Assembly: GCA_015709205.1 (NCBI GenBank)
Contig: JACCQO010000011.1
Span: 36,102-100,101 of the forward strand
Reading direction: 5' to 3'
DNA: 64,000 bases
DNA from: Desulfovibrionaceae bacterium
Lineage (GTDB): Bacteria; Desulfobacterota; Desulfovibrionia; Desulfovibrionales; Desulfovibrionaceae
Shown piece by piece: positions 8,752 through 58,377 of the stretch; the stretch's first letter is position 1, and each line of letters opens with the position of its first letter. The notes below the pieces were generated by a model that was given only the letters and a program-made list of their open reading frames with translations, was not told the DNA's origin and made no database searches. The position numbers were made by a program, and so were the translations under genes.

Positions 8752-8833
8752 CATCCGCCGCCAGCGGCGGGCATGAGTCAGTGAGTTAGGAAATTCGGTT
8801 CAACCCTATTAACCAATTCAGTTGGAGGAAAGT

Positions 8834-9310
8834 ATGCCGACTTTTGTTGATCCGCAAAAGTGTGATGGATGCAAGGGTGGCGAAAAGACCGCTTGCATGT
8901 ACATCTGCCCCAACGACCTGATGATCCTGGATGCCGACGAGATGAAGGCGTACAACCAGGAGCCCGATGCGTGCTGGGAGTGCTACTCCTGCGTGAAGAT
9001 CTGCCCGCAGGGCGCCATCACGGCCCGCCCGTACGCCGACTTCGCGCCCATGGGCGGCACCAGCATCCCGATGCGCGGCTCCGAAGACATCATGTGGACC
9101 ATCAAATTCCGCAACGGTTCCGTGAAACGCTTCAAGTTCCCCATCCGCACCACCCCTGAAGGCTCCATCAACGCCTTCGCCGGCAAGCCCGAGCCTGCCG
9201 ACCTGGACAACGAGCTGCTGTACACCGAGACCGCCCTGGTCGAGCCCAAGGCGTTCGTGGCCGAGAAGGCCCAGATCCAGGAAGCGGACAAGACGGTTGT
9301 GCTCAAGTAG
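8834..9310 (+). CDS. aprB: Adenylylsulfate reductase, beta (iron-sulfur) subunit
   Basis: Electron-transfer subunit of APS reductase, which reduces APS to sulfite and AMP. The 158-residue protein carries two [4Fe-4S] sites: CDGCKGGEKTACMYICP near the N-terminus, with the spaced insertion typical of AprB, and CWECYSCVKICP near residues 47-58. The C-terminal tail, which wraps around AprA in known structures, is present. The ATG at 8834 (MPTFVDP) is preferred to an ATG 12 bases earlier because GGAGG lies at 8824-8828 and this N-terminus is conserved. aprA follows after 57 bases with its own strong ribosome site. Electrons are thought to come from QmoABC, encoded just downstream. Confidence 0.98.
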   Translation: MPTFVDPQKCDGCKGGEKTACMYICPNDLMILDADEMKAYNQEPDACWECYSCVKICPQGAITARPYADFAPMGGTSIPMRGSEDIMWTIKFRNGSVKRFKFPIRTTPEGSINAFAGKPEPADLDNELLYTETALVEPKAFVAEKAQIQEADKTVVLK

Positions 9311-55846: not shown

Positions 55847-57037
55847 ATGCCCATAGAAAAGCTTGTGATCAAGAACTACAAGGCTTTTCGCGATGCAGTG
55901 CTGACGAATATCCCCAGGTTCTCCGTTGTTGTCGGTGCGAATGGAACGGGAAAGACGACGTTGTTCGACGTCTTTGGATTTCTGAAGGACTGCCTGACCT
56001 ACAACGTAACGCGGGCGCTGCAGCGGCGTGGCGGGTTCAAGGAGGTCTGTTCTCGCGGGGTCGCCGACGGGCCCATTTCCATCGAGGTGCAGTTCCGCCA
56101 CGTCATCAACAAGCGAGACCGGCTCGTAACGTACTATCTTGAGATCGGGAACGAAGAGGACCGTCCCGTGGTGACGCGCGAGATCCTGCGCTACAAGCGC
56201 GGGCGGCATGGCAAACCGTACCATTTCCTCGATTTTTCGCACGGGAAGGGGACTGCGATAAAAAACGAGGACGACTTCGACGAGGCGGACAAGAAGCTGG
56301 ATCCGGAGCCGAGCGTGCTGGACAGCCCGGACATCCTCGCCGTCAAGGGTATCGGCCAGTTCACGCGTTTCAAGGCCGCCAACGCCTTTCGCCAGTTGCT
56401 GGAAAACTGGCACGTGTCGGACATCCACATCAGCGATACGCGCGGCAGCAAGGACGTCACCGGAGATGACGAACACCTGTCGGTTTCCGGCGACAACCTG
56501 CAGTTGGTCGCCAACAATCTGTTCCACGAGCACCGGGAGGTGTTCGACGCCATCCTGGGCAAGATGCAGCGGCGCGTGCCGGGCGTGACGTCCGTGCAGC
56601 CGTCGGAGACGGACGATGGGAGGCTGCTCCTGAAATTCCAGGACGGGGCGTTCCGGGACCCGTTCATCGACCGTTACGTATCCGACGGCACGATGAAGAT
56701 GTTCGCCTATCTCGTCCTTCTGCATGATCCAGCCCCCAGGCCGCTGCTGTGCGTCGAGGAGCCGGAGAACCAGCTCTATCCGTCGCTGTTGCGGGAACTG
56801 GCCGAAGAGTTCAGGGAGTACGCGCAACGCGGCGGACAGGTCTTCGTTTCCACGCATTCTCCAGACTTCTTGAACGCTGCACGTCTTGAGGAGGTTTTTT
56901 GGCTCCAGAAGCAGGGCGGATACACGGTTGTCCGCCGGGCGAACGAGGACGAGCAGATCGCCGCCTACATGCGGGATGGCGACACCATGGGCGCTCTTTG
57001 GAAGCAGGGGCTCTTTTTCGGAGCCGATCCCGCATGA
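55847..57037 (+). CDS. AAA-family (OLD-like) ATPase of a two-gene module
   Basis: A 396-residue ATPase of the ABC/OLD-like AAA_21 type. Walker A is GANGTGKTT (residues 30-38) after the typical IEKLVIKNYKAFRDAVL opening. The signature-like YVSDGTMKMFAYLVLL precedes Walker B (LLCVEEPEN, about 300-308), and the histidine switch is in FVSTHSPDFLNAA (about 335-345). The middle is long and charged. The gene is clearly lower in GC and uses more A/T-ending codons than its neighbours, a sign of transfer. Its stop overlaps the start of a DUF4276 gene, so it makes a coupled pair. Such ATPase plus TOPRIM-like pairs occur among anti-phage systems, and this role is inferred. Confidence 0.88.
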   Translation: MPIEKLVIKNYKAFRDAVLTNIPRFSVVVGANGTGKTTLFDVFGFLKDCLTYNVTRALQRRGGFKEVCSRGVADGPISIEVQFRHVINKRDRLVTYYLEIGNEEDRPVVTREILRYKRGRHGKPYHFLDFSHGKGTAIKNEDDFDEADKKLDPEPSVLDSPDILAVKGIGQFTRFKAANAFRQLLENWHVSDIHISDTRGSKDVTGDDEHLSVSGDNLQLVANNLFHEHREVFDAILGKMQRRVPGVTSVQPSETDDGRLLLKFQDGAFRDPFIDRYVSDGTMKMFAYLVLLHDPAPRPLLCVEEPENQLYPSLLRELAEEFREYAQRGGQVFVSTHSPDFLNAARLEEVFWLQKQGGYTVVRRANEDEQIAAYMRDGDTMGALWKQGLFFGADPA

Positions 57038-57588
57038 GCACGCTGGTTTTTTGCCTGGAGGAGCCGTCCGCGAAAGCCATGCTCGAAGGCGTCCTGCCAC
57101 GCCTGCTTTCCGGCAGGAACGACTACCGGTTCATCGTTTTTGAAGGGAAGCAGGACATGCAGCGGGAGTTGCGGCGTAAGCTGCTGTTGTGGCAGGCTCC
57201 GGATTCCCGCTTCATCGTCGTTCGCGACCAGGATTCGGGGGACTGCGTGGCGGTGAAGCGCGCTTTGCGCGACATCTGCCGTAACGCTCATCGGCCCGAG
57301 GCCCTGGTGCGCATTGCCTGCCACCAATTGGAATCCTTTTACCTGGGCGATCTTGCCGCCGTGGAAGCCGGGCTTGGGGTGAGGGGGCTCGGCCAGCGGC
57401 AACGGACGAAAAAGTTCCGCAATCCAGATATGTTGTCCAACGCGCCTCAGGAACTCGAACGGCTGACGGGCAATCGCTACCAAAAGGTTGGCGGTTCGCG
57501 GGGCATCGGTCCGCATTTGCGGCTGACCGGTAATGCTTCCAGGAGCTTTTGCGCCCTTCTCGAAGGCATCCGGCGCCTGGACCAGTAA
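57034..57588 (+). CDS. DUF4276 (TOPRIM-like) partner protein
   Basis: A 184-residue protein of the DUF4276 type. The opening strand and acidic turn (LVFCLEEPSAKAMLEGVLPRLL, Glu9/Glu10) resemble the glutamate of TOPRIM nucleases; FIVVRDQDSGDC gives Asp65, Asp67 and Asp70; and HQLESFYLGD matches the ExxxLGD-type stretch of this family (Glu100, Asp106). These acidic residues could bind metal for nucleic-acid cleavage. The ATG overlaps the ATPase stop (ATGA). GC is lower than in flanking genes. An ATPase plus separate TOPRIM protein is the same architecture as the PARIS defence system, but the partner family differs, so it should not be called PARIS. Confidence 0.82.
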   Translation: MSTLVFCLEEPSAKAMLEGVLPRLLSGRNDYRFIVFEGKQDMQRELRRKLLLWQAPDSRFIVVRDQDSGDCVAVKRALRDICRNAHRPEALVRIACHQLESFYLGDLAAVEAGLGVRGLGQRQRTKKFRNPDMLSNAPQELERLTGNRYQKVGGSRGIGPHLRLTGNASRSFCALLEGIRRLDQ

Positions 57589-58089
57589 CTATGCCGGGGC
57601 GACCCGGAAGTTCCTCCGTCTTTCTCCCCGGCATGCCGTATCTATCCTGTCTCAACGGCCCATGAGTCCTGCACCGCACGACCGGCCGGAGGAGCACCCC
57701 AGTCCGACGCACCCCGACTGCGTCCGCCGTATCGGCGCAGGTCGGAAGCTGCCTGTTCGACAGCCTGACCCGCAATAGCGCCCGCCGCCCATCTCGGCCG
57801 CGCCCTTATCCGGTTTTCCCCTTGGACGTTTCGCCCGTTGCCCGTTCGCGCCCAAGGCGGGCGCACCGACGTCGGCTTGACTGCGCCGTCCGACCCATGC
57901 GCGCCGCGTCTCGACAATCCACCGAAAGTACATGGAAAAATTTTCCCAACTTTTTTTAAAAATCTAGTTGAAAATGAATTTCAATTTCGATAAGGTGGGG
58001 GCGAACAGTGAGACGAGAGAGCGGACGCGGTGCAAGGGCGACGAGATACCCACTCCGCGGGCCCCTCCCCCAACCACAGGAGAACGATC
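57589..58089. other. Intergenic region after the ATPase-DUF4276 pair
   Basis: A nine-base inverted repeat (57591-57599 with 57626-57634) lies just past the DUF4276 stop and may end its transcript. The next 300 bases are featureless. From 57930 the DNA turns AT-rich and holds a Fur box and promoter for the DUF2325 gene. No gene is seen. Confidence 0.5.
57968..57984. promoter_or_regulatory. Fur box upstream of the DUF2325 gene
   Basis: TTGAAAATGAATTTCAA holds a 7-1-7 palindrome, TGAAAAT-G-AATTTCA, with one mismatch to the symmetric Fur pattern. It overlaps a likely -35 (TTGAAA), so iron-loaded Fur would block transcription. Confidence 0.65.
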
Positions 58090-58377
58090 ATGGGTGCGGC
58101 ACTCATAGGCGGCATGGACAGGCTCAAGAGGGAGTACATCAACGAGGCCAGGAAGGCGGGCGTCAAGCTCAAGGTCTTCACCGGCAAGGAGCGCGGCATC
58201 GGCGGCCGTCTCGGCAGCGTGGACTTCGTGGTCCTGTTCACGGATAAGATTTCCCACTCTGCGCGCCGCGAGGCGGAGCAGGCAGCCAAGGCCAACGCCA
58301 TTCCCGTCTACCGGTTCCACTCTTCGGGCGTCTCCACGCTGCGCGAGTGCGTGCAGGGCGCCTGTAGGGCCAACTAG
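58090..58377 (+). CDS. DUF2325-domain protein under a Fur box
   Basis: A 95-residue cytoplasmic protein that is a single DUF2325 domain: LIGGMDRLKREYINEARKAGVKLKVFTGKERGIGGRLGSVDFVVLFTDKISHSARREAEQAAKANAIPVY followed by RFHSSGVSTLREC. The GGMDR loop and FTDKISHSA stretch are the most conserved parts. Function is unknown; the fold looks Rossmann-like. A Fur-type box sits about 105 bases upstream, so iron limitation probably induces it. An AGGAG site precedes the ATG, and a strong terminator follows, making it a one-gene unit. Confidence 0.85.
   Translation: MGAALIGGMDRLKREYINEARKAGVKLKVFTGKERGIGGRLGSVDFVVLFTDKISHSARREAEQAAKANAIPVYRFHSSGVSTLRECVQGACRAN

Follow-up and report, generated by a model that had tools for sequence, protein, structure and literature searches.

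The window analysed here is a stretch of 64,000 nucleotides from a Desulfovibrionaceae bacterium (GenBank assembly GCA_015709205.1, contig JACCQO010000011.1, positions 36,102 to 100,101). It carries, on the plus strand, a two-gene pair that belongs to the catalogued candidate defence system HEC-01. The upstream gene (55847..57037, ATG start, 396 residues) encodes an ATPase of the ABC/OLD/SMC-head type (AAA_21), predicted to be a sensor and nuclease gate; the downstream gene (57034..57588, ATG start, 184 residues) encodes a DUF4276 protein, the predicted effector, a putative OLD-type TOPRIM two-metal nuclease. Both frames are open, and the ATG of the DUF4276 gene sits within the ATPase stop (ATGA, 57034..57037), an overlap that couples the two genes, as seen in the sequence and in the gap lengths of paired loci.

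Composition and family assignment

The GC contents of the ATPase and DUF4276 genes were 0.600 and 0.614, compared with 0.648–0.725 in eight nearby genes, and the GC contents at third codon positions (GC3) were 0.796 and 0.746, compared with 0.885–0.963. The low GC3 of the pair is a foreign signature. Both the overlap and the lower GC had been noted in the original prediction and were confirmed. The gene was the sole DUF4276 match detected in the source genome, which is 98% complete.

Family assignment was performed with Pfam and PADLOC. In Pfam the ATPase matched AAA_21 (1e-28, 101.7 bits, cut-off 27) and the second protein matched DUF4276 (3.6e-9, 37.6 bits, cut-off 30.2), its sole family above cut-off. 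The best PADLOC models were those of HEC-01 for both proteins: PDLC04144 for the ATPase (675 bits, 7.2e-204) and PDLC04143 for the DUF4276 protein (264 bits). AriA, GajA and other models trailed far behind for the ATPase (AriA PDLC02980, 101 bits; best AriA match 3e-29). The PADLOC labels clash, 'A' denoting the DUF4276 protein and 'B' the ATPase in PDLC04143/04144, while other 'A' models (PDLC04174–04184) match the ATPase. The pair thus agrees with HEC-01 (PADLOC-DB 2.0.0) in both genes, in their adjacency on one strand and in the top-scoring models; it differs in that no Hma gene was found among the seven window neighbours scanned. HEC stands for Hma-embedded candidate (PMC12988326, crediting a 2024 preprint by Payne et al.), and several HECs including HEC-06 are reported there to have antiviral activity, HEC-01 not being among those named in the portion of that article available to us. 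The pair had been put forward as an undescribed system, which is incorrect because it matches the HEC-01 models and HEC-01 is already catalogued; excerpts of PMC12724379 also give DefenseFinder output placing HEC-01 in Desulfovibrio piger. The window pair is a further member of HEC-01 with one unusual residue (Gln98). No mention of DUF4276 was found in the literature searched.

Conserved residues and predicted folds

The ATPase translation contains the motifs GANGTGKTT, LLCVEEPEN and STHSPDF, which we take to be the Walker A, Walker B and H-switch motifs, respectively. The window protein was aligned with 44 of the 49 listed ATPase references; G30, N32, G33, G35, K36, E304, E305 and H337 were invariant in the 45 sequences, so that the three ATPase motifs of the original prediction are upheld. 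The AlphaFold2 model of the ATPase had a predicted local distance difference test score of 85.8. The OLD nuclease 6p74 was the first row returned by Foldseek (E = 1.4e-13), and in the VIA Z ranking SMC heads came top (20.3), with 6p74 at rank 49 (18.1).

The reference alignment of DUF4276 proteins (A1) contained the window protein and 46 of the 49 listed references. Across 56 DUF4276 proteins the acidic residues singled out beforehand were present and conserved: Glu9 in 56, Glu10 in 54, Asp65 and Asp67 in 56, Asp70 in 49 and Glu100 in 55. Lys75 and Asp106 were also invariant and Glu98 was found in 54 of the 56. Residue 98 is Gln in the window protein (codons 98–100, Gln-Leu-Glu, at 57325..57333 on the plus strand), Ala in L016 and His in the viral copy L214. 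Three cysteines are likewise near-invariant (C71 in 55, C82 in 53 and C96 in 54 of the 56).

The predicted structure of the DUF4276 protein has an OLD-type TOPRIM fold carrying the conserved acids (a Glu, a DxD motif and a further Glu), the residues being matched by order and spacing. The closest solved structure was the DNA-cutting C-terminal region of OLD (~10% identity, Foldseek E = 9.8e-4). A model lacking a TOPRIM-like acidic site would have spoken against a nuclease; the predicted fold has such a site.

Pairing, spread and genomic context

Searching the genome collection with the ATPase query P0001 yielded 70 loci, spread over cyanobacteria, planctomycetes, proteobacteria, verrucomicrobia, spirochaetes, bacteroidetes and other groups. 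Pairing was examined in 79 loci: the window's own, nine found in relatives and all but one of the 70. DUF4276 lay within 250 bp of the ATPase in 69, mostly overlapping it by four or one bases (gap of -4 in 28 and -1 in 23). The ten other loci comprised L005, adjacent by direct alignment, two loci at contig ends and seven with no DUF4276 or with a broken gene or fragment. The 395 genomes of the phylum contained 107 DUF4276 (PF14103) matches, distributed over 69 of them. Starting from DUF4276, 30 loci were fetched; 28 had the ATPase and the remaining two were cut by contig ends. Starting from the ATPase in the 395 genomes, with four candidates scored per genome, DUF4276 was directly downstream in 37 of 44 matches. 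One of the seven misses concerns an ATPase split in two: the match was its leading piece, and the following piece adjoins DUF4276.

Both genes were whole in 48 of the 70 genome loci. In 13 a full-length ATPase accompanied a broken or missing DUF4276, in three the ATPase was broken (L081 being a fragment only), in two both were broken and four were cut by contig ends; L069 was counted as broken, yet by tblastn it looks intact, if divergent. Preferential loss of the effector is therefore possible, in a count that is biased because loci were picked via the ATPase and that may include sequencing errors among the breaks; against this bias can be set the ATPase gene, which is twice the length of the DUF4276 gene. 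Loci with a full-length ATPase and a truncated or undetected DUF4276 include L042, L053, L031 and L066.

The two overlapping genes, together with the more frequent loss of the downstream one in this ATPase-picked set, could also point to a type IV-style toxin–antitoxin pair, AbiEii being named in the Pfam entry for AAA_21. We consider this very improbable: AAA_21 is a broad ATPase model far outscored by PADLOC HEC-01 (675 versus 102 bits), and neither protein matched a nucleotidyltransferase family.

Distribution, phylogeny and carriage show that relatives of the pair have spread horizontally and that prophage-like contigs carry some of them. P0002 was matched in ten of 100 sampled genomes including the window's own (L008 and L011 only partially); no other genome of the source genus was in the sample. 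In the ATPase tree (omitting L001, L002, L008, L011, L046, L072, L074, L077 and L081) the window copy, on a long branch, groups with copies from Verrucomicrobiota and Spirochaetota (Shimodaira–Hasegawa-like approximate likelihood-ratio support of 93, not starred), and four copies from the same family as the window's are split between two other groups. A single clade for the five same-family copies was rejected by the approximately unbiased test (p = 1.21e-6), which was run on a quick tree and chosen after the tree had been seen. ATPase relatives occur in ten plasmid-collection records, four of them from Synechocystis and another a 4.9-Mb record from Aeromonas, and seven of the ten also match DUF4276; in pSYSM of Synechocystis, toxin–antitoxin and phosphorothioation-associated genes are found close to the pair. 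In the IMG/VR record L182 (4188–7668; same contig as L213) a CI repressor and an integrase flank HEC-01, and the contig also has Phage_GPD, P2 GpU and CII genes. The contig is a P2-like prophage by its gene content, and the placement of HEC-01 there is reminiscent of P2 Old. In viral L214 the pair adjoins an integrase-like open reading frame, as annotated from the sequence. Phage records gave two weak matches (31% and 26% identity). Viral L215 and L216 (4973–7191) carry a HEC-01-like ATPase (57% identity) adjoining a second ABC ATPase, with no DUF4276 detected.

A chromosomal maintenance or cell-cycle role for an OLD-like ATPase, as reported for archaeal Cran1, would take the pair out of defence. 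It is quite improbable, as the distribution is patchy and does not track host phylogeny, and as copies occur on plasmids and next to phage integrases. By rough gene calling, the most widely shared neighbour cluster occurred in at most 13 of the 70 loci. Neighbours of relatives were scanned with PADLOC and Pfam (dereplication reduced 226 genes to 168, of which 141 were used and 27 short ones dropped); the families are the first 25 of 146, 109, 196 and 118, and as families and not matched genes were counted they give no island frequency. Weak mads matches were not used. The neighbours comprise both housekeeping and defence genes, the latter including HmaB, HmaC, type I and type III restriction, GajB-like, DRT, Wadjet JetC/JetD and SoFic genes. 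The contexts vary, some of them with defence or phage genes, rather than forming one constant chromosomal setting devoid of mobile or defence neighbours.

The original prediction held that the pair splits a group of iron-related genes. The analysis did not show this: no such group was found beside fur or DUF2325 in the relatives fetched. From relatives, 29 of the 46 further fur matches and 29 of the 58 further DUF2325 matches were fetched; none had the window's fur, DUF2325, panB, HxlR-like or nitroreductase-like gene alongside (flanks of at most ~1.5 kb, shorter at contig ends; feo was not among the queries), and the fur/DUF2325 gene order of the window was unseen there. An iron-responsive module linked to the flanking fur and feo genes would agree with the 84-bp gap between fur and the pair, where no terminator-like site was reported, but in none of the nine relatives' loci matched by P0002 do the flanks (~0.3 kb on the ATPase side, 1.5 kb on the DUF4276 side) contain fur, DUF2325 or panB. 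This reading is scarcely credible, and a tie of HEC-01 to iron genes was not seen in the relatives examined.

The window contains no tRNA and no Rfam match at gathering score. Only short repeats, which may be due to chance, were present at the locus, no promoter-like site was found there and terminator-like sites were at chance level (4 observed, 3.7 expected). The pair is followed by 501 bases without a recognised gene (57589–58089, GC lowered to 0.62), with an AT-rich end, presumably Fur-box-like, upstream of the DUF2325 gene at 58090, the next recognised gene. Elsewhere in the window, the open reading frame at 8813–9307 presumably encodes an adenylylsulfate reductase beta subunit-like protein, which fits a sulfate reducer. 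On another contig of the same genome an OLD-like TOPRIM match was recorded (G000:C15:164144-164344, PF20469, E = 5.3e-12).

Proposed mechanism and substrate

The pair is likely to be a horizontally acquired HEC-01, a two-gene split relative of OLD- and PARIS-type defence. The ABC ATPase would act as sensor and gate, and the DUF4276 TOPRIM nuclease would hold two Mg ions through Glu9, Asp65, Asp67 and Glu100, giving an ATPase-gated two-metal nuclease acting in infected cells. The proteins may form a physical complex in which ATP-dependent gating, triggered by infection, would lead to nucleic acid cleavage and protection, with activation harming the host (abortive infection). Gene pairing, the conserved acids and mobility were observed directly, and the fold is predicted. 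The original reading of the two genes as an ATPase plus a TOPRIM-like nuclease is supported, as is their mobile, defence-like behaviour; the gating we infer.

Several points weigh against this reading. The case for a TOPRIM depends on a predicted fold, with ~10% identity to OLD, and its demonstration from sequence comparison failed: PDB sequence searches with the DUF4276 protein found no TOPRIM, and profile–profile comparison with eight OLD proteins (hhalign) was non-significant (probability 0.14%, E = 0.32). The metal-B helper E404 of OLD has no evident counterpart, position 13 being Ala in the window protein. The frequency of defence neighbours has no matched control, many neighbours elsewhere are housekeeping genes, and PADLOC gave no match for the seven window neighbours. 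Finally, the window copy could be weakened, Gln98 replacing a near-invariant Glu. Our guess is that it is probably still active, because OLD has Thr at the matching position and mutating single metal-site residues of OLD had no discernible effect. A more speculative reading, which we consider unlikely, is that the DUF4276 proteins of HEC-01 are a separate OLD-type TOPRIM branch with a reorganized metal-B site (E98/E100 replacing E404/T506/E508), of which no description was found in the literature searched; some copies, the window's with its Gln98 among them, would be tuned to nick and not to degrade, and ATPases orphaned by effector loss would keep a function of their own, such as blocking or decoying the trigger.

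Like PARIS (AriA/AriB), the pair has an ABC ATPase and a TOPRIM nuclease, here a predicted one, as separate genes; the nuclease is DUF4276, whereas that of PARIS is DUF4435, which was found in none of the 100 genomes, source genome included. The OLD nucleases (P2 Old, TsOLD and BpOLD; class 2 is GajA) share the ABC/SMC-type ATPase, a TOPRIM plus helical domain, predicted here, and the E, DxD and further Glu, and both P2 Old and the L182 copy lie on P2-type elements. OLD is one chain, whereas the window system is two proteins without similarity to OLD in nuclease sequence profile. The accessible part of PMC10568477 raises the possibility that the split PARIS pair constitutes a class 4 of OLD. 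The Gabija, Septu and retron ATPases (GajA, PtuA) are of the same fold class as the window ATPase, but their helicase, HNH nuclease and reverse transcriptase partners were not found by PADLOC in the seven window neighbours: no UvrD-like GajB helicase lies downstream, and neither a reverse transcriptase nor, at Rfam gathering score in the window, an msr/msd RNA was detected.

The effector might instead be an RNase, for example a tRNA cleaver, within an otherwise identical system; this would resemble PARIS, in which recognition of a phage protein by AriA leads to activation of AriB. The two separate genes recall PARIS, AriB is described in sections of PMC12409363 as a TOPRIM two-metal endoribonuclease, and loss of the effector with retention of the ATPase in up to 13 of 70 loci is as expected for a host-toxic effector; the partner is, however, DUF4276 and not DUF4435, and the predicted fold comes closest to the DNA-cutting OLD region. 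AriB is absent from the 50 rows listed, which excludes nothing. An RNase is a tenable possibility, though a doubtful one. For the gated nuclease of HEC-01 we lean slightly towards DNA over tRNA as the substrate, because the closest solved structure to the predicted fold cuts DNA.

A catalogued candidate hereby gains a testable mechanism, with DUF4276 as an OLD-type TOPRIM nuclease. Alongside PARIS, HEC-01 would then count as a split ATPase/nuclease system, for which Gln98 provides a natural variant for comparison. The P2-like integrase beside HEC-01 parallels P2 Old and suggests that temperate phages carry HEC-01 against rivals.
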